A DNA stretch of 51,229 bases, from contig JAUSJX010000004.1 in assembly GCA_030647435.1 (NCBI GenBank), forward strand, positions 1 through 51,229, written 5' to 3'. Both the position numbers and the translations under genes were made by a program. The notes beneath the pieces are model-generated. The model was not told the DNA's origin. It saw nothing but the letters and a program-made list of their open reading frames with translations, and ran no database searches. Of this stretch, positions 1 through 11,232 are shown piece by piece; position 1 is the first letter of the stretch; each line of letters starts with the position of its first letter. The DNA is from Candidatus Rokuibacteriota bacterium (lineage in GTDB: Bacteria > Methylomirabilota > Methylomirabilia > Rokubacteriales > CSP1-6).

Positions 1-319
1 CCCCGGAGGCCGAGCCTCACGGTTGAGAGGCGAAGGCAGCATGGTCCGTCGCATCTGGCTGACGCGGCGGGACACTCCGGCGGGGTGAGAGCGACGGCAC
101 GGTGACCAGGACACGTCGAGCGACTGGAGAAGCCCTCCTCGTCCCACCGCGAAAGCGGCGGAGCCATGTCCAAGCTATAACCAGTGTTCCTGGGAAGTGG
201 GCGGACGGCGAGAGGGTGACGGAGGGGTCCGCAGTAGCGAGGAAGCGGGGTAATGCCCGTGGAGCAAAGGGGCCCTACTGGTGTGCAGTGTCTCCGCCCA
301 CACGGGAGGCAGGGGCGGT

Positions 320-1606
320 ATGACAACAGCGCCCATCAGCCTGCAAGACCTGCAGCGGAGGCTCTACGTCAAGGCGAAGGCCGAGAAGGACTGGCGGTTC
401 TGGGGCCTGTACGTTCATGTGGCCAAGCTGGAGACACTCCACGCGGCGTATGCGCGGGCCAAGCAGGATGACGGCGCGCCGGGTATCGACGGCGTGACGT
501 TCGAGGCCATCGAGGCAGCCGGGGTGGAAGGGTTTCTGGCGCAGCTGCGGGACGAGCTGGTCTCACGCACCTATCGGCCACTACGGAACCGGCGCGTCGC
601 AATTCCGAAAGAGGGCGGCAAGGTCCGCGTCCTGGGGATTCCGGCGATTCGGGACCGCGTGGTGCAAGGGGCGCTCACACTCATCGTGGAGCCGATCTTC
701 GAAGCCGACTTTCACGAGGGGTCGTACGGATATCGACCGAAGCGGACAGCCCAGCAGGCGGTGGACCGAGTGGCCGAGGCCATCGTGCGGCACAAGACGC
801 GGGTGATTGACGTTGATCTCGCGGCGTACTTCGACAGCGTGCGGCACGACCTGCTGCTCGCCAAGGTGGCCCGCCGGGTGAACGACCGAGACATCTTGCA
901 CTTGGTGAAGCTGATGCTGAAAGCCGCTGGGACGCGCGGGGTTCCTCAGGGCGGCGTGCTCTCCCCCCTCCTCAGCAACATCTATCTCACGGAGGTCGAT
1001 GCGATGCTGGAGCGGGCCAAGGCGGTCACGGCCAACGGCACGCACACGTACGTGGAGTACGCGCGCTATGCTGATGACCTGGTGATCCTCGTGCACAATG
1101 ATCGTCGGCAGGACTGGCTGATAGAGGCGGTAAACCGGCGGCTGCGGGAGGAGTTGGCGACACTCGATGTGCAGCTGAACGAGGAGAAGAGCCGGATCGT
1201 GGACCTGACGCGGGGGGAGAGCTTCGGGTTCTTGGGCTTTGACTTCCGGCGTGTCCGCTCGTTGCGGGGGCGCTGGCGGCCGCAGTATACGCCGAAGCAG
1301 AAGAAGCGCACGGCGTTGCTGCAAGCGCTCAAGGCGGTGTTCCGGGGCTTCCGGTCCCAGCGGGTGGAGGTGTTGATCGTCGAGATCAACCCGAAGCTGC
1401 GGGGCTGGGTCCACTACTTCCGGATCGGGCACGCGAGCCGGTGCTTTGCCTTTGTGAGGCAATGGGTCGAGAAGAAGGTCCGGCGCCACTTGATGCGGGC
1501 GAGGAATCGTCGGGGCTTCGGCTGGAAGAGGTGGAGTACGGCGGGGCTCTATGACTCGCTCGGGTTGTTTGCAGACTACCGAGTGCGGTACCTGAGCCGG
1601 GTCTGA
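320..1606 (+). CDS. ltrA: Group II intron reverse transcriptase/maturase
   Basis: This is a 428-residue intron-encoded protein that helps the intron splice and copies it into new DNA sites. The reverse transcriptase domain spans about residues 50-310. It contains PQGGVLSPLLSN at 209-220 and the catalytic YADD at 250-253. A maturase (X/GIIM) domain follows at about 325-420, with the typical LRGWVHYFRIG stretch. There is no C-terminal HNH endonuclease domain, so mobility would rely on nicks or replication forks, as in other En-minus introns. The ATG at 320 was chosen because GGGAGG lies at 304-309; an in-frame GTG at 281 would add 13 residues. The gene appears intact. Confidence 0.9.
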   Translation: MTTAPISLQDLQRRLYVKAKAEKDWRFWGLYVHVAKLETLHAAYARAKQDDGAPGIDGVTFEAIEAAGVEGFLAQLRDELVSRTYRPLRNRRVAIPKEGGKVRVLGIPAIRDRVVQGALTLIVEPIFEADFHEGSYGYRPKRTAQQAVDRVAEAIVRHKTRVIDVDLAAYFDSVRHDLLLAKVARRVNDRDILHLVKLMLKAAGTRGVPQGGVLSPLLSNIYLTEVDAMLERAKAVTANGTHTYVEYARYADDLVILVHNDRRQDWLIEAVNRRLREELATLDVQLNEEKSRIVDLTRGESFGFLGFDFRRVRSLRGRWRPQYTPKQKKRTALLQALKAVFRGFRSQRVEVLIVEINPKLRGWVHYFRIGHASRCFAFVRQWVEKKVRRHLMRARNRRGFGWKRWSTAGLYDSLGLFADYRVRYLSRV

Positions 1607-3900: not shown

Positions 3901-4107
3901 CTATTGGTCTCTATCGTCCTCTTCGTCGCGGTCCGGACCCTGGGGTCCTCTCCCGTGTCCGACGACGGCCAAGGCAAATGCCAGGGTCAGAACAGCGGTC
4001 GTGATCAGGAAGATGACCATGCCTATCTGGCATCCCGGGTCGCTCCAGGCCTTGCTCATCAGCCAACCAAAGACGATGCCAGCGCCGGCGAACCCTACGT
4101 CCCTCAT
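3901..4107 (-). CDS. Small membrane protein coupled to the sheath gene
   Basis: This is a 68-residue protein with two hydrophobic segments, at about residues 5-17 (GFAGAGIVFGWLM) and 28-50 (MVIFLITTAVLTLAFALAVVG). A strongly acidic tail ends GPDRDEEDDRDQ. Its ATG at 4107-4105 overlaps the sheath gene TGA in an ATGA arrangement, which fixes the start and implies translational coupling. An earlier in-frame ATG at 4173 would give 90 residues but would overlap the sheath gene by 70 nt. I recognise no family. The position suggests it could anchor or accompany the sheath protein at the inner membrane, but that is inference only. Confidence 0.6.
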   Translation of the reverse strand: MRDVGFAGAGIVFGWLMSKAWSDPGCQIGMVIFLITTAVLTLAFALAVVGHGRGPQGPDRDEEDDRDQ

Positions 4108-5297
4108 CGTGCGCCGCGCCGAGCTGAGCGCCGCCGCCGCTTGTGGTGTGACGGCGGTCGATCGGCGGTCCATTGCCCGATGCGGAAAATGACGAACTCG
4201 GACGGTCGCACCACCGCCACGCCGACGACGCAGATGAGCCGCCCCTGGTCGATGTCGGCCTGCGTCATGGTCGAGCGGTCGCACTTCACGAAGAAGGCCT
4301 CTTCCGGCCTGCTGCCGGGCAGCCTGCCGGAGCGCCACTCACTCGTCAGGAAGTCCTCTACCGCGCGCCTGATCTTGGCCCAGAGCGGCTCGGCGTTCGG
4401 CTCGAAGACCGCCCACTGCGTGCCCTTGTCGATCGAGGCCTCGAGATATATGAAGAGGCGGCGGACGTTGACGTACTTCCATTCGGAGTCCGCGCTCAAT
4501 GTCCGCCCGCCCCAGACCCGGAAGTCGCGCGGCGCGAAGGCACGGATGCAGTTGATGGACTCCGAGTTGAGCACCGTCAGCGAAGCCTCGGTGACCTTGT
4601 GGTCGAGCCCGACGGCCAGCTTGACCACCTCGTTCGCCGGCGGCTTGCTCGCGCCTCGGGCGAGATCAACCCGCGCGTAGATGCCGGCGACGAAACCGCT
4701 CGGCGGCAGCGACAGTTCGCGCGCGTTCCTCGGGTCCTTCACGCGTACCCACGGGTAATACAGCGCGGCTTTCGAGGACGTGAGTCCCGCCCGCATCGCG
4801 CGGACGTCTTCGATCGACTGCCCGGGCCCTGAGTCCAGCACGGCGAATCGGTACCGCATCCGCTCCGCGTGCTCGATCAAGACCTTGGCGATCGCTGTTC
4901 CAGTTCCGCCGTCTTCATGCCCGAAGGTCGACCCGGGCGCCGCGACGATCGAGATCTCCTCGGTGGCCTCGAAGCACTTCAACGCCTTCTGGCAGTCGCC
5001 GGCCTTCCACCGAGGAACGCGCGCCACGTAGAGACGACGCCCGCCTTCCTTGAAGAACGCGCGCACGGCATGCCACGTGTAGTTCGACCTGGGGGCGCCG
5101 CCATCGAGCCGTAGCCTCCGGCCGCTGCCATACGTCCGCTCGAAGTCTGCGAGGCTGGTGACGAGGGTCGCCCTCTTGATCGGGCCCTTGTGACAGGGGC
5201 CGATGAACCCGGCGGTGCTGGTCGGTACGCCTTCGATCGGCTTCAGATGGATCGACATCTCTTCGACGTACACGCCCGGCGCGAGATACTCCGGCAT
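4104..5297 (-). CDS. Phage-type contractile tail sheath protein, solitary
   Basis: This 397-residue protein opens with PEYLAPGVYVEE, then KPIEGVPTSTAGFIG, the hallmark N-terminus of phage and extracellular-contractile-injection-system tail sheath proteins. The C-terminal half has the conserved NVRRLFIYLEASI, then GTQWAVFEPN and LWAKIRRAVEDFL segments of the sheath C-terminal domain. These segments interlock subunits around a tail tube. The length is in the family range. There is no tube, baseplate, spike, AAA ATPase or other tail gene nearby. Instead it sits between a lipoprotein gene upstream (60 nt) and a coupled membrane protein gene downstream. The extreme C-terminus is Arg/His-rich. The start follows GGAGG in cacggaggcaccg. 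Confidence 0.88.
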   Translation of the reverse strand: MPEYLAPGVYVEEMSIHLKPIEGVPTSTAGFIGPCHKGPIKRATLVTSLADFERTYGSGRRLRLDGGAPRSNYTWHAVRAFFKEGGRRLYVARVPRWKAGDCQKALKCFEATEEISIVAAPGSTFGHEDGGTGTAIAKVLIEHAERMRYRFAVLDSGPGQSIEDVRAMRAGLTSSKAALYYPWVRVKDPRNARELSLPPSGFVAGIYARVDLARGASKPPANEVVKLAVGLDHKVTEASLTVLNSESINCIRAFAPRDFRVWGGRTLSADSEWKYVNVRRLFIYLEASIDKGTQWAVFEPNAEPLWAKIRRAVEDFLTSEWRSGRLPGSRPEEAFFVKCDRSTMTQADIDQGRLICVVGVAVVRPSEFVIFRIGQWTADRPPSHHKRRRRSARRGAR

Positions 5298-5357: not shown

Positions 5358-5651
5358 TTACGGCGTGACCGTGTAGCCCTTCGTCTTCATGCACTCCGCG
5401 AAGGGATCCAGGTCGACCATCCGGCTTTGGGTGGCCAGCGGGGCGGGGCCGCCGGAACCGCCGACCCAGACCGCGGTGCCTGTCCACGGGCTGGGGGAAG
5501 CGCCGAGGCAGGCCGCGCCGTCATCGGTCAGCTGCTGGGAAGTCACGCCCTGCTTGTGGTAGCGGGCGGGCCATTGGCTGGGGTCGTTGGCGGCGGCGCA
5601 GCCGCTCAGGAATCCAATGAGCGTGCCTATCGCGAGAGTTCGGCGGATCAT
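5358..5651 (-). CDS. Small lipoprotein
   Basis: This 97-residue protein has a lipoprotein signal peptide: MIRR, a hydrophobic segment and the lipobox LSGC, with Cys18 predicted to be lipidated. The mature part contains two further Cys (in DDGAACLG and FAECMKTKGY) that could pair. The C-terminal FAECMKTKGY is a motif common to short Gram-negative periplasmic lipoproteins. No function is known. It lies 60 nt upstream of the sheath gene on the same strand, so the two may share a transcript, and it diverges from the SRAP gene across about 60 nt. Confidence 0.75.
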   Translation of the reverse strand: MIRRTLAIGTLIGFLSGCAAANDPSQWPARYHKQGVTSQQLTDDGAACLGASPSPWTGTAVWVGGSGGPAPLATQSRMVDLDPFAECMKTKGYTVTP

Positions 5652-5710
5652 GCTGGCCGCGAGTCTAGCAGAGACGGCCGCCGAGCTGCCGGGCGAGTAG
5701 AATACGTGCC

Positions 5711-6208
5711 ATGTGCGGCCGCTACACTCAGACCGCGGCGTTCGACGAGCTGGCCCTCCGCTTCGGCATTACCGTCGAGGACGCGGGCCTCGAAGACCTG
5801 CCGCCGCGCTACAACGTCGCCCCGTCACAATCGGTGCCGATCGTGGTCGCCCACAATGGCGGCCGCCCGCTCGTCATGGCCAAGTGGGGCTTCCACCCCG
5901 TCTGGATGAAGACCAGCAAGCTGGCCCCCATCAACGCGAAGGCGGAGACCGTCGCCAACGCGCCGGAGACGTGCACCATCATCACGACCACGCCCAACGA
6001 CCTCGTGGCCGCGATTCACAACCGGATGCCGGTGATCCTCAAGCGGGACGACGAGGTCCGCTGGACCGACGCGCACGTGACCGACCCGGCGGCGGTGCTG
6101 CCGTGCCTCCGCCCGCTGCCGGCGGAGCTCATGGAGGGGTACCCGGTGTCGACGCTGGTGTCATCGCCCGGAAACGAAGGGCCGCGCCTCGTGCAACCGG
6201 TCAGCTGA
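5711..6208 (+). CDS. SRAP/YedK-HMCES-like protein with internal deletion
   Basis: Full-length SRAP proteins (about 220 residues) crosslink to abasic sites in single-stranded DNA through Cys2. Here MCGRYT keeps Cys2, INAKAE keeps the Asn75 equivalent (YedK Arg77 is Lys), and IHNRMPVIL keeps the active-site His. The protein is only 165 residues. Between AKAETV (ends at 81) and TCTIITT (starts near 87) about 50 residues are missing, including the GFYEW segment with the catalytic Glu (YedK Glu105). The reading frame is intact across the junction, near DNA 5953-5968. It may be a reversal-defective crosslinker or a decaying gene. The HicA gene starts 4 nt after its stop. Confidence 0.88.
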   Translation: MCGRYTQTAAFDELALRFGITVEDAGLEDLPPRYNVAPSQSVPIVVAHNGGRPLVMAKWGFHPVWMKTSKLAPINAKAETVANAPETCTIITTTPNDLVAAIHNRMPVILKRDDEVRWTDAHVTDPAAVLPCLRPLPAELMEGYPVSTLVSSPGNEGPRLVQPVS

Positions 6209-6212
6209 CGCA

Positions 6213-6437
6213 ATGACGAGAATGGACTTGGAGAAGTGGCTCATCCGCAACAACTTCGCGCAGGTTCCTGCGGGCAAGACAAGCCATAAGCAGTTCGTGC
6301 TCGGCACGTGCAAGGTGACGGTGCCGGGTCACGGCTCCAAGGACCTCAGCAAGAAGCATCTCGGCATGATCCTTCGCTCACTGGAGTCCGTCGGCTTCGA
6401 CCGCGCGAAGGTCCGGCGTGAGTGGGGCGATGCCTGA
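6213..6437 (+). CDS. hicA: HicA-like toxin (orphan)
   Basis: This 74-residue protein is HicA-like: a dsRBD-like mRNA-interferase fold. It shows the family order of an N-terminal helix (LEKWLIRNNFAQV), then GKTSHKQF with the catalytic-type His at residue 25, then KVTVPGHGSKDLSKKHLG and a C-terminal helix. HicA toxins cleave mRNA and are normally neutralised by a HicB encoded next to them. No HicB is present: the next gene downstream is a convergent lipoprotein with a stop 1 nt away, and upstream is the SRAP gene. Usual hicA genes are 60-80 codons, so the length is normal. Confidence 0.7.
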   Translation: MTRMDLEKWLIRNNFAQVPAGKTSHKQFVLGTCKVTVPGHGSKDLSKKHLGMILRSLESVGFDRAKVRREWGDA

Positions 6438-6438
6438 A

Positions 6439-6729
6439 TCACAACGGAGGCTGGAGCGCCCACCACCCTCGACTTACCATGCAGCGTTGAAAGAGGCGAT
6501 TCGCGCTGGTTTGTTCCGGCGTCACCGGCCCTTCGAAGTACGTGCGCGGGTCGGTGTTTCCCTCGACTGATCCCACACGCGACTCCGGGCCGCACGCGGA
6601 CAGGGCGCTCTTCATCTCTGTGTTCGATGCGTTCGCCTTGTGCCAGAGGCGATAGTCGGTACCGTAGAGCGAGCACCCAGCAAAGAGCCCGGCGAGCAGC
6701 ATGTAGGCAGCGGGCCTGAGCGCGAGCAT
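6439..6729 (-). CDS. Small lipoprotein
   Basis: This 96-residue protein starts at the ATG behind a strong AAAGGAGG; a longer frame to 6813 is unlikely. The signal peptide MLALRPAAYMLLAGLFAGC carries a lipobox with Cys19. The mature domain has Cys in LSACGPES and FQRCMVSRGWW, similar in layout to the lipoprotein at 5358-5651: two Cys, the second near the C-terminus followed by a Met and a short basic/aromatic end. The role is unknown. It lies downstream of the BNR-repeat gene (24 nt) and is probably in the same transcript. Confidence 0.7.
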   Translation of the reverse strand: MLALRPAAYMLLAGLFAGCSLYGTDYRLWHKANASNTEMKSALSACGPESRVGSVEGNTDPRTYFEGPVTPEQTSANRLFQRCMVSRGWWALQPPL

Positions 6730-6752
6730 GGAAGCCTCCTTTCCCTTGACGG

Positions 6753-7817
6753 TCAACCACAGGCGACCGTGTAGATGTCCTGGACGCCGTCGGGCAGGTG
6801 CTGCTCGGACCACGTCCGGCCGCCGTCCTGGGTGCCGAAGACCTGGCCGCCGCGGCTGACGCAGTAGACCTGGTTGGGATCGGCCCTGTGCAGCGCCACC
6901 GCCATCATGGTGCTCCCGGCCTTGACGCCGTGGTCGAAGCGCGTCCAGGTCTCGCCGACATCCCGGCTGCGATAGAGCGATCCATCCACGCTTCGCGCCG
7001 CGGGGCTCAGGCAGGCGTACAGGTCGCGCGGATCGTGCGGCGACACCAGGATGTCACGGCTGTACGTGAGCGGCGAGAAGCGGCCGATGTCCATGTTCTG
7101 CCAGCTCGCGCCGCGGTCGGCGCTCTGGAACAGGCCCATGCGGACCGCCAGGAACACGGTGCCGGGCCGCGCGGCGCTCACGCACACCGCGTGGCCGTCG
7201 AGCATGCCTTCGAGATGGCTGTCGCTGTCGATCGTACTCTTGAGGTGCGGCAGCTCGGCGAGCTTGAGCAGGTCCGAGCTGCAGTCATCCCACGTCTCGC
7301 CGCCGTCGAGGCTCCGCATGACGCCGCCGACTTCGAGCGCCGCGTACAGCTCCTCGGGCCGGGTGGGATCCGCCACGAGGCGCATCACGCGGCAGACGAA
7401 GGACTTCATCTTGACGCGCTCGGGCTGCGCGGCCTTCGGAAGCCGATGCCAGGTGTCCCCACCGTCGTCGCTCCGGAAGACGCCGACGGGAGAGGTGCCG
7501 GCGTACAGGATGCGGGGATTGGCCGGATGCACGAGGATCGACCAGACTTCGGTGCCGTCATCGGGGAAGCCGAGCCGCTCCCAGTGCTCCCCGCGGTCCG
7601 TGCTCCGGTAGGGGCCGGTCCGGGTGCCGAGATAGACGACGTCCGGGTTCGTCGGGTGGATGGTGATCGCCTGGACGTGAGTCACCTCCGGCAGGCCCTT
7701 GGTCAGCTGCGTCCAGCGGTCGTCGCCGTCCGCGCGCCGGAAGATCCCCCCGAGCGTCTTTGAGCTGGACCGCGCCGCGCCGACGTAGACGTGCGAGGCC
7801 GCCGATGGATTGGTCAT
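6753..7817 (-). CDS. BNR/Asp-box repeat beta-propeller protein
   Basis: This 354-residue protein is built from repeated Asp-boxes (SxDxGxxW). Visible copies are STDRGEHW, SDDGGDTW, SLDGGETW, SADRGASW, SRDVGETW and TQDGGRTW, alternating with strands such as VVYLGT and ILYAGT. This pattern predicts a six- or seven-bladed beta-propeller of the sialidase/VPS10 superfamily. There is no signal peptide and no sialidase FRIP motif, so it is more likely a binding or structural propeller than a glycosidase. Its start follows a weak GGGGG site. It is encoded 10 nt after the VOC-family gene and likely shares its transcript. Confidence 0.82.
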   Translation of the reverse strand: MTNPSAASHVYVGAARSSSKTLGGIFRRADGDDRWTQLTKGLPEVTHVQAITIHPTNPDVVYLGTRTGPYRSTDRGEHWERLGFPDDGTEVWSILVHPANPRILYAGTSPVGVFRSDDGGDTWHRLPKAAQPERVKMKSFVCRVMRLVADPTRPEELYAALEVGGVMRSLDGGETWDDCSSDLLKLAELPHLKSTIDSDSHLEGMLDGHAVCVSAARPGTVFLAVRMGLFQSADRGASWQNMDIGRFSPLTYSRDILVSPHDPRDLYACLSPAARSVDGSLYRSRDVGETWTRFDHGVKAGSTMMAVALHRADPNQVYCVSRGGQVFGTQDGGRTWSEQHLPDGVQDIYTVACG

Positions 7818-7827
7818 GTGTGTCCCC

Positions 7828-8259
7828 CTATGGCCGGAAGTCCGAGGAGCCGACCCAGCCCGTCTCGGAGACGTCGAGCATGACTCCGTCCGGGCCGCTG
7901 TACTTCACCTCGACGTTGCCGTGGCGCTGACTGGACTGTCCCACGCCGAGCGCCTCGTTGACGTCGTCACGGCGCTCGGAGCCGGCGGCTGCCAGCCGCT
8001 CGGCGATCGCCTCGAGACTCTCCACCTGGAAGCCGATATGGTGGATCCCGTAGAAGTCCTTGCCTCGCTCGACTCCCGCCACTGCGTCGTTCTTGAACTT
8101 GAGGATGGCCAGGTTGAGGTCGCCGTCGGTGAGAAAGTAGCCGCTCACGGCGGGATGGTCGACCTGCCCGATCTGCTTCATGCCGAACACATCGGTATAA
8201 AAGCGCGCGGTCTTCTCCGGGTCCTGGGTCGACAGCGCGATGTGCTTGATCTTCGCCAT
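7828..8259 (-). CDS. VOC-family (glyoxalase/dioxygenase fold) protein
   Basis: This 143-residue vicinal-oxygen-chelate protein consists of two beta-alpha-beta-beta-beta modules. Module one begins KIKHIALSTQDPEKTARFY, with a potential metal His early in the strand. Module two begins GIHHIGFQVESLEAI and ends VEVKYSGPDGVMLDVSETG, where Glu/Asp could complete the site. VOC members include glyoxalases, ring-cleaving dioxygenases and epimerases; the substrate cannot be told. The start at 8259 was preferred because GGAGG lies 5-10 nt upstream; the frame extends four codons further to 8271. It is divergent from the TRAP operon. Confidence 0.82.
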   Translation of the reverse strand: MAKIKHIALSTQDPEKTARFYTDVFGMKQIGQVDHPAVSGYFLTDGDLNLAILKFKNDAVAGVERGKDFYGIHHIGFQVESLEAIAERLAAAGSERRDDVNEALGVGQSSQRHGNVEVKYSGPDGVMLDVSETGWVGSSDFRP

Positions 8260-8380
8260 GACGTCCTCCACTGGTCGCGAGTTCGATAGGGTGGCCTATT
8301 TTAGCCCGTCCGCGGCCGCCGCGCATACGATAGACTACCCGCCGCCGGCCCATCGTCCCATCCGCGCAGAGGAGGTGCAC

Positions 8381-9409
8381 ATGCCCAACATCGGGAGATT
8401 CGTACTCGCCGCTCTGGCCGCCGGCATCATCGCCGCCGCCCAGCCCGCGCTCGCCCAGACCACGCTCACGATGTCCTCGTGGGTGTCGCCCCAGCACCAT
8501 CTGACCAGCGTCGTCCTGCAGGGCTGGGCGACCGAGGTCGAGAAGGCCACCAACGGCCGCGTCAAGTTCCAGATGCTGCCCAAGCATCCATCGGCGCCGC
8601 CGGGCACCTTCGACGCGGTCAGGGACGGCCTCGTGGACCTGTCGTACGTCACCGCGAGCTACACGCCGGCGCGGCACATTCTGCCACTCATGGCGGAGCT
8701 GCCGGGCGCCGGCGACACCGCGCTCGTCAACTCGGTTGCCTACTCGCGCATCTACTGGAAGTACTTCGACAAGATCGGCGAGTACAAGGGCGTGAAGCTC
8801 CTGGGCGTGTTCACGCACGGCCCCGGCCAGATGTTCACCAAGCGGCCGGTGGCCGGCATCAACGACGTGCAGGGCCTGAAGATCCGCACCGGCGGCGGCA
8901 TCGCCGAGGCGGTGGCGAAGGCGCTCGGCACCTCCGCCTTCGTGAAGCCGGCGCCCGAGTCCTACGAGCTCCTCAAGGGCGGGGTCGCCGACGGCGTGTT
9001 CTTCCCCCTGGAGTCGATCATTTCGTTCAAGCTCGACACCGTGCTCGAGCAGGCGACGCTGTTCCCGGGCGGGATGTACAGCTCGTCGTTCGGCTTCTTC
9101 ATGAACGAGGACAAGTGGAACAAGCTGTCGAAGGAGGACCAGGCCGCGATCGAGAAGCTCTCCGGCGAGCACATCGCGCGCCTCGCCGGGGCGTCGTGGG
9201 ACGAGGCCGACAAGAAGGGCCTGGAGGCGCTGAAGAAGTCCGGCGTCAAGATCGTCAACGCCAACCCGGCGTTCGTCGCCGAAGTGCAGAAGCGCTCCGC
9301 CCCCATCGTCGACGACTGGATCCAGAAGGCCAGCGCCAAGGGCGTGGACGCCGCCAAGATCCTCGCCGAGTTCCGCGCGGAGCTGAAGAAGGTCGCCGCC
9401 GGCCAGTGA
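8381..9409 (+). CDS. dctP: TRAP transporter substrate-binding protein DctP
   Basis: This 342-residue periplasmic binding protein captures a carboxylate or related solute and delivers it to the DctQM permease. A signal peptide covers residues 1-25, ending PALA before QTTLT. The mature protein has TRAP-P landmarks. SWVSPQHHLTSVVLQGWATE opens the mature chain, then come LPKHPSAPPGTFDAV and QGLKIRTGGG, where the Arg in KIRT is the carboxylate-binding residue in the family. Start: GAGGAGG lies 4-10 nt upstream of the ATG at 8381. The three TRAP genes are tightly arranged with 13-19-nt gaps, so they form one operon. Confidence 0.92.
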   Translation: MPNIGRFVLAALAAGIIAAAQPALAQTTLTMSSWVSPQHHLTSVVLQGWATEVEKATNGRVKFQMLPKHPSAPPGTFDAVRDGLVDLSYVTASYTPARHILPLMAELPGAGDTALVNSVAYSRIYWKYFDKIGEYKGVKLLGVFTHGPGQMFTKRPVAGINDVQGLKIRTGGGIAEAVAKALGTSAFVKPAPESYELLKGGVADGVFFPLESIISFKLDTVLEQATLFPGGMYSSSFGFFMNEDKWNKLSKEDQAAIEKLSGEHIARLAGASWDEADKKGLEALKKSGVKIVNANPAFVAEVQKRSAPIVDDWIQKASAKGVDAAKILAEFRAELKKVAAGQ

Positions 9410-9428
9410 CCGGCCCCGCGGCTAACCA

Positions 9429-9902
9429 GTGACCGCTCCCGCGGCCACATGGGAGCGGCGCGTCGAGGCGCTTCTCGGCGTCGTCGCTTCCGTCATTCTC
9501 CTCGCCATGATGCTCCTCACCTTCGTGGACGTGGTGGCGCGGTACATTTTCAGTCGCCCGGTCCGGGGCGCCTTCGAGATCACCGAGCTGATGCTGCTGG
9601 TGCTGATCTTCGCCGGCCTGCCCCTCGTGTCGTTCACCGACGAGCACGCCCTCATGGATTTCATTGACCGCCTGCTCCCCCCGCGCGCGCAGCGTGCGCT
9701 CGAGGGCCTCGTGCAGGGGGTATCCGGGGCGATCATGTTCCTCCTCGCCTGGCAGGTCTGGCTCAAGGCCGACCGGATCTGGGCCTACCGCGACGCCACC
9801 GACGTCCTGCGCATCGTCTACGGCCCCTTCGTCTACTTCATGGCAGTTTCGATCGGGCTGGCCGGCCTGATTCACCTCTACAAAGTGGTCGAGCGTCGAT
9901 GA
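9429..9902 (+). CDS. dctQ: TRAP transporter small permease DctQ
   Basis: This 157-residue membrane protein has four predicted helices at about residues 13-37, 47-66, 84-105 and 128-150. These match the DctQ subunit that pairs with DctM in Na+-driven TRAP uptake. The second helix includes AFEITELMLLVLIFAGLPL, a conserved DctQ region. It lies between dctP (19 nt) and dctM (13 nt). Confidence 0.9.
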   Translation: MTAPAATWERRVEALLGVVASVILLAMMLLTFVDVVARYIFSRPVRGAFEITELMLLVLIFAGLPLVSFTDEHALMDFIDRLLPPRAQRALEGLVQGVSGAIMFLLAWQVWLKADRIWAYRDATDVLRIVYGPFVYFMAVSIGLAGLIHLYKVVERR

Positions 9903-9915
9903 GTGAAGCCCGCCG

Positions 9916-11214
9916 GTGATCGAGGGGCTCTGCGGCCTCACCGCGATGATGGCGCTCGCCTTCCTGCGCATCCCCATCGCGTACTGCATGGGCATCGTCG
10001 GCATTATCGGCTACGCCTACATGCGCGACTGGAACTGGCTGGTGGCCTCCGCCATGGTGCAGACCAAGATCTACGAGACGGGGCGCAACTACACGCTCTC
10101 GGTGGTGCCGCTCTTCATCCTGATGGGCAACTTCGTCACGCGCGCTGGCATGTCGCAGGAGCTGTTCCGCGCCGCGTACACCTTCATCGGCCACCTGCGC
10201 GGGGGGCTGGCCATGGCGACCGTGTGGGCGTCCGCCGGCTTCGGCGGGATCTGCGGCTCCTCGATCGCCACGGCGGCGACCTTCGCGAAGGTGGCGTACC
10301 CGTCCATGAAGCGCTTCGGCTACTCGGACCGGCTCGCCGCAGGCGTCGTCGCCGGCGGCGGCACGCTCGGCATCATGATCCCGCCGTCGACCATCATGGT
10401 GATCTACGGCGTCTTCACCGAGACCAACATCGGCAAGCTGTTTGCCGCCGGGATCCTGCCCGGCATTCTCGGCGCCTTCCTGCTCTGCGGCGCAGTCCGG
10501 TACATGACCTGGCGCGATCCGGCTTCGGGCCCGCCGGGCGAACGCTCGACTTGGCGCGAGCGCCTGCTCGCTCTCAAGGACGTGTGGGCGGTGGCGGTGC
10601 TGTTCATCTTCGTGATGGGCGGCATCTACGTCGGCTTCTTCACCGCCACCGAGGGCGCGGCCATGGGCGCCTTCGGGGCCATGGTGTTCGCCCTGTGGCG
10701 GCGCGCGCTCACCTGGCGGACGCTCTACGCGTCGCTCCTCGAGAGCGCCCGCACCACGTCCATGCTGTTCATGATCCTGATCGGCGCGCTGATCTTCGCG
10801 GAGTTCGTCAATATCACGACGATGCCGGCGGACCTCAAGGGCTGGGTGACGCGCTTCAACCTGAGCCCGACGATGGTGGTGGCGGCGATCTGCGCGGTCT
10901 ACGTGGTGCTCGGCACGGCGATGGAGGAGCTGTCGATGATCCTGCTCACGATCCCGGTGTTCTTCCCGGTGATCGTCCAGCTGGGGTTCGACCCCGTCTG
11001 GTTCGGCATCATCATCGTGTGCGTGGTCGAGATCGGCCTGATCAGCCCGCCGGTCGGGATGAACATGTTCGTCCTCAAGACGCTGCTGCCCGAGGTGAGC
11101 ACCGGGACCGTCTTCAGCGGCGTGCTGCCGTTCATGTGGGCCGACGTGCTGCGTCTCGCCATCCTGGTCGCGTTTCCCTGGATCTCGCTCTGGCTGCCGA
11201 GCATGATGCGCTGA
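9916..11214 (+). CDS. dctM: TRAP transporter large permease DctM
   Basis: This 432-residue protein belongs to the ion-transporter superfamily and has about 12 membrane segments. It forms the Na+/solute transport path of the TRAP system. Conserved DctM features are SVVPLFILMGNFVTRAG near residue 57, the AGFGGICGSSIATAATFAKV segment and the GGTLGIMIPPSTIMVIYG signature near 150. GLISPPVGMNMFVLK near 375 is the second pseudo-repeat counterpart. Translation probably starts at the GTG at 9916, as no closer ATG fits. The operon ends here and converges with the MFS gene 19 nt away. Confidence 0.93.
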   Translation: MIEGLCGLTAMMALAFLRIPIAYCMGIVGIIGYAYMRDWNWLVASAMVQTKIYETGRNYTLSVVPLFILMGNFVTRAGMSQELFRAAYTFIGHLRGGLAMATVWASAGFGGICGSSIATAATFAKVAYPSMKRFGYSDRLAAGVVAGGGTLGIMIPPSTIMVIYGVFTETNIGKLFAAGILPGILGAFLLCGAVRYMTWRDPASGPPGERSTWRERLLALKDVWAVAVLFIFVMGGIYVGFFTATEGAAMGAFGAMVFALWRRALTWRTLYASLLESARTTSMLFMILIGALIFAEFVNITTMPADLKGWVTRFNLSPTMVVAAICAVYVVLGTAMEELSMILLTIPVFFPVIVQLGFDPVWFGIIIVCVVEIGLISPPVGMNMFVLKTLLPEVSTGTVFSGVLPFMWADVLRLAILVAFPWISLWLPSMMR

Positions 11215-11232
11215 AGGGCGACAATCTCCCCC

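Follow-up and report, generated by a model that had tools for sequence, protein, structure and literature searches.

An in-frame deletion in the SRAP gene of a Candidatus Rokuibacteriota bacterium, probably an incipient pseudogene

Introduction

The product of a SRAP gene normally caps base-less sites in DNA. Can it still do so when the gene has lost its catalytic segment and kept its reading frame? This question is raised by a gene in the window, the whole 51,229-nucleotide stretch of a Candidatus Rokuibacteriota contig that was analysed. The original prediction had noticed that the protein keeps the crosslinking Cys and lacks the segment with the catalytic Glu, and it offered three fates: an irreversible trap for abasic sites, a dominant inhibitor, or a decaying protein. 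The gene and its parts are as follows.

5648..5710, + strand: upstream stretch, probably the promoter region, near-unchanged in the sister species G001
5711..6208, + strand: SRAP (PF02586) gene, 165 aa, internally shortened, the sole SRAP gene of the genome
5711..5956, + strand: retained N-terminal part, residues 1-82, with Cys2 and Asn75
about 5957..5962, + strand: deletion junction, where 177 bp (59 codons) of G001 are absent
5960..6205, + strand: retained C-terminal part, residues 84-165, with the active-site His103 (HNRMP)

Results

The shortened SRAP was found where it had been predicted: an ORF fills 5711-6208 of the + strand exactly and encodes 165 aa with no internal stop. It matched the Pfam SRAP profile in two stretches (profile positions 1-88 and 147-213 of 214) with no match between them. 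The whole protein scored E 1.6e-37 and 129.6 bits (cut-off 27.1), which assigns it to PF02586 by descent; the resemblance is not due to chance. In a phmmer search of solved-structure sequences, the protein aligned with residues 1-83 and 142-222 of E. coli YedK. Like YedK and HMCES, it has Cys2, Asn75, the active-site His and the sequence of both retained parts. Unlike YedK, it is without residues 84-141, including Glu105, and is predicted by modelling to fall short of the SRAP fold.

The residues that had been reported as kept are indeed present. Cys2 directly follows the initiator Met (M1-C2), N75 and H103 (His160 of YedK) occupy invariant columns of the SRAP alignment, and every further invariant column outside the gap is conserved too. 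GFYEW with the catalytic Glu105 is absent, as had been claimed, and the gap takes with it 13 nearly invariant positions: F87, R95, C96, G102, F103, Y104, E105, W106, P117, F128, A131, G132 and L133. The loss itself was correctly recognised and its junction lies within the predicted interval of 5930-5990; its size had been underestimated at about 50 residues, since ~58 are missing relative to YedK and exactly 59 codons relative to G001 (224 vs 165 aa).

Full-length SRAPs with GFYEW are encoded by G001, G002 and G004 of the same genus (224, 225 and 225 aa), and the window protein is shortened by comparison with all three. A fourth genome of the genus, G003 (78% complete), gave no SRAP match. The nearest relative is G001, with ~94% DNA identity on both sides of the gap, 88% protein identity in both retained parts, and a HicA-like gene near SRAP in both genomes. 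A 73-base match spanning the upstream stretch and the start of the ORF is 97% identical. Because the intact relatives all carry the missing segment, we take the change to be a deletion on the lineage of the window.

Relatives were searched for the same shortened form, as the original prediction had proposed, and none of those covered carries it. SRAP is present in 14 of the 95 genomes of the phylum that were examined, and the internal in-frame gap occurs only in that of the window; other odd SRAPs in the phylum are a match split over two frames (G093) and partial matches (G079, G084). Of 117 distinct SRAP ORFs carrying the motifs on both flanks, 116 retain the Glu segment and the exception is the window's own. 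In 59 SRAP loci from genome contigs, a regular expression found the Glu motif in 53; L059 has a variant form, and L017, L036, L040, L056 and L060 have no complete SRAP frame. Both scans (59 loci, 117 ORFs) depend on recognisable motifs and are biased to that extent. Four of the five incomplete loci have SRAP frames that stop early on MAG contigs, at 142 (L036), 93 (L040), 72 (L056) and 45 (L060) aa from the start, and are perhaps other decaying or misassembled copies.

The same form was not found among 80 of 205 viral relatives, in a scan whose three patterns included GFYEW, a bias against Glu-less forms, nor among the 40 listed of 264 plasmid records. One plasmid record, H40, aligns across the junction and was rejected, its annotated CDS being a fragment of only ~82 aa. 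At the level of titles and abstract openings, the literature held nothing on point about a truncated or pseudogenised SRAP.

The deletion is read from the assembly sequence, and the genome is a draft of 176 contigs with several indels relative to G001 in this region. A contig misjoined or strain-collapsed over a gene that is really full-length would look similar. We consider such an assembly or binning artefact unlikely. Misjoins in a k-mer graph typically need more shared sequence than a few bases, and the two deletion edges share just a few, a CGCC match seen near both of them in G001. Furthermore, the reading frame is preserved across the junction, and the contig runs colinear with G001 for kilobases (6446-11215, 94.8% identity). 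A Pfam profile search of the genome (98.5% complete, 2.1% contamination) returned a single SRAP match, with no second fragment elsewhere.

Between 4104 and 6446, the window differs from G001 by several gene-sized changes. Two features were relevant here.

4104..4143, + strand: relic (3' end, 40 bp) of a choloylglycine-hydrolase-family gene
6213..6437, + strand: HicA-like gene, starting 4 bases past the SRAP stop

The hydrolase gene is present in G001, G002 and G004 and absent from the genome of the window, with no match in G000 or G003; the junction of its loss carries a 7-bp TCATCGT match. Adjoining the relic is ~1.5 kb with a tail-sheath-like gene and a 97-aa ORF, where G001 has a few bases. 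The window also lacks two genes of G001, one of 183 aa that separates SRAP from HicA and a peroxiredoxin-like one of 184 aa beyond HicA, but the outgroups polarise only the hydrolase loss, and these two could be G001 gains. In G002 and G004 the neighbours of SRAP differ from those in the window. Such turnover of genes at the locus is in keeping with a decaying SRAP.

Several other features of the locus were recorded. The phage tail-sheath-like gene (4104-5297, - strand; Phage_sheath_1 and Phage_sheath_1C) stands alone, and its end overlaps the hydrolase relic. The HicA-like gene occurs in 2 of the 5 genus genomes, with dN/dS of 0.03 between the window and G001 (8 silent and 1 replacing change in 74 codons); by eye, the ORF lists show no evident HicB adjoining it in either. 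A 441-aa ORF at 281-1606 (+ strand) resembles, again by eye, the reverse transcriptase of a group II intron. In G001, an AhpC/TSA-type peroxiredoxin gene (L083, 6148-6702, - strand) has a TGA in frame at the expected reactive Cys (FTPT-U-TKEL). Reading it as a broken gene was rejected, given that this is its single in-frame TGA and stands at that position. With the TGA read as Sec, the AhpC-TSA match is full-length (E 7e-30), and a stem on the 3' side of the TGA does only slightly better than shuffled sequences (z -1.7); from its sequence, the product is likely a selenoprotein.

We obtained two structural models from the same 20 sequences, which differed in whether the window SRAP or the intact L003 SRAP of G004 came first; the intact protein was thus not that of the nearer G001. 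The L003 model was confident (pLDDT 92.0, pTM 0.90), with YedK 6kbz_D as its best PDB match (E 1.6e-20, TM 0.86). The window model reached a pLDDT of 71.0 and a pTM of 0.54 and matched nothing in the PDB at E<=0.001, its top hit being again 6kbz_D at E 0.066 (TM 0.38, rmsd 12.7); with VIA-align its Z was at most 2.8 (HMCES; rmsd 5.8, 100 aligned). In the L003 model, the residues lost from the window protein (84-142) hold a helix (85-93) and 4 of the 12 listed strands (95-100, 102-107, 116-122 and 128-135). The models suggest that the fold is probably gone, although a shortened sequence may score poorly for technical reasons when it is aligned with intact relatives, so that a low score does not prove misfolding.

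The prediction of an irreversible trap agrees with part of the known chemistry. In a study of YedK, the E105Q DPC showed no exchange after 24 h (PMC9436759). The same study reports that, in crosslinking by E105A and E105Q, the slow phase lags wild type by a factor of at least 1000, so that Glu105 is needed for crosslink formation and not for reversal only (PMC9436759). These mutants are otherwise complete proteins, unlike the window SRAP. Taken together, the slow-phase defect and the missing exchange imply that losing Glu105 alone would mainly block formation, and reversal secondarily. An irreversible trap at abasic sites is therefore, in our analysis, unlikely, because crosslink formation depends on Glu105 and the fold has probably been lost as well.

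To ask the broader question of whether the short protein has any function, as a slow, non-reversing trap, as an inhibitor, or as a remnant that binds DNA or protein, we also considered the pattern of substitutions. Between the window and G001, dN/dS of SRAP was 0.32 over 165 shared codons, the highest of the eight genes compared; the seven other nearby genes gave 0.03-0.23, and the five remaining pairings of the four SRAPs in the genus gave 0.15-0.19. When changes were polarised with G002 and G004 as outgroups, the window branch received 4 silent and 5 replacing ones, the G001 branch received 6 silent and 7 replacing ones, and 9 were ambiguous; one multi-change G001 codon was counted base by base and lists a passing stop. 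The window branch is thus no more relaxed than the branch of the intact gene. Under neutrality, ~25 replacing changes and 0.9 stops would be expected on the branch, and 5 to 9 replacing changes were observed. By a simple Poisson reckoning, which assumes that half of dS falls on each branch, at most about 0.30-0.56 of the branch was neutral; with a dS of 0.08 instead of 0.134 the result is not significant (P 0.08). With far fewer replacing changes than neutral, SRAP appears to have been constrained for most of the window branch. Since the deletion, the gene has acquired neither a stop nor a frameshift. Either the deletion is, in all likelihood, recent, or constraint persists on the short form; these sequences fit both.

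Constraint across the branch as a whole would suit a protein that retains a function, as would the preserved frame and upstream region, the retained Cys2, Asn75, His103 and other invariant columns, and the YedK E105Q adduct described above. Against this stand the need for Glu105 in forming the crosslink, the loss of four core strands, a model short of the SRAP fold, and the fact that no relative, among the SRAP-bearing phylum genomes and the 117 ORFs, has kept the form. We regard retained function as improbable. Its most specific version, a naturally occurring mini-SRAP that would adopt an alternative fold or a swapped dimer and make slow, non-reversing abasic-site crosslinks without Glu105, seems very improbable.

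Compact SRAPs with catalytic motifs do exist (L059, 184 aa; L012, 203 aa; L008, 207 aa), but that the window protein belongs to an established compact-fold subfamily and carries no lesion is scarcely credible, since all three keep the Glu segment, the same gap was seen in none of the phylum genomes or ORFs surveyed, and both retained parts are so close to a full-length sister. The smallest of the three, L059 (2650-3201), is a Chloroflexi SRAP ~40 residues below the usual length; it had been a candidate for the same short form and was rejected because HFYEW is present, as is HHRMP.

Discussion

We favour a recent in-frame loss-of-function deletion in an ordinary SRAP gene, giving an incipient pseudogene, and put its probability at roughly 0.78. 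Of the three predicted fates, decay is the best supported, because the form is unique, four core strands are lost, the model collapses and a neighbouring gene was deleted on the same lineage; nothing supports a dominant inhibitor.

We propose that a YedK/HMCES-type gene suffered one 177-bp deletion on the lineage of the window, after the split from the sister species. This would have removed GFYEW with the catalytic Glu, one helix and four core strands in a single step. The product is most likely unfolded, as the models suggest, and would not crosslink abasic sites efficiently. The gene may still be open since the deletion was a multiple of three and, as we infer, recent.

Such a decaying gene would be one example of SRAP loss, that is, ordinary gene loss and not a new enzyme. 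That SRAP is dispensable in this phylum agrees with its presence in so few genomes, 81 of the 95 having no match. If the short form were active after all, it would show, as an experiment of nature, what portion of the SRAP fold a protein requires in order to hold an abasic site.
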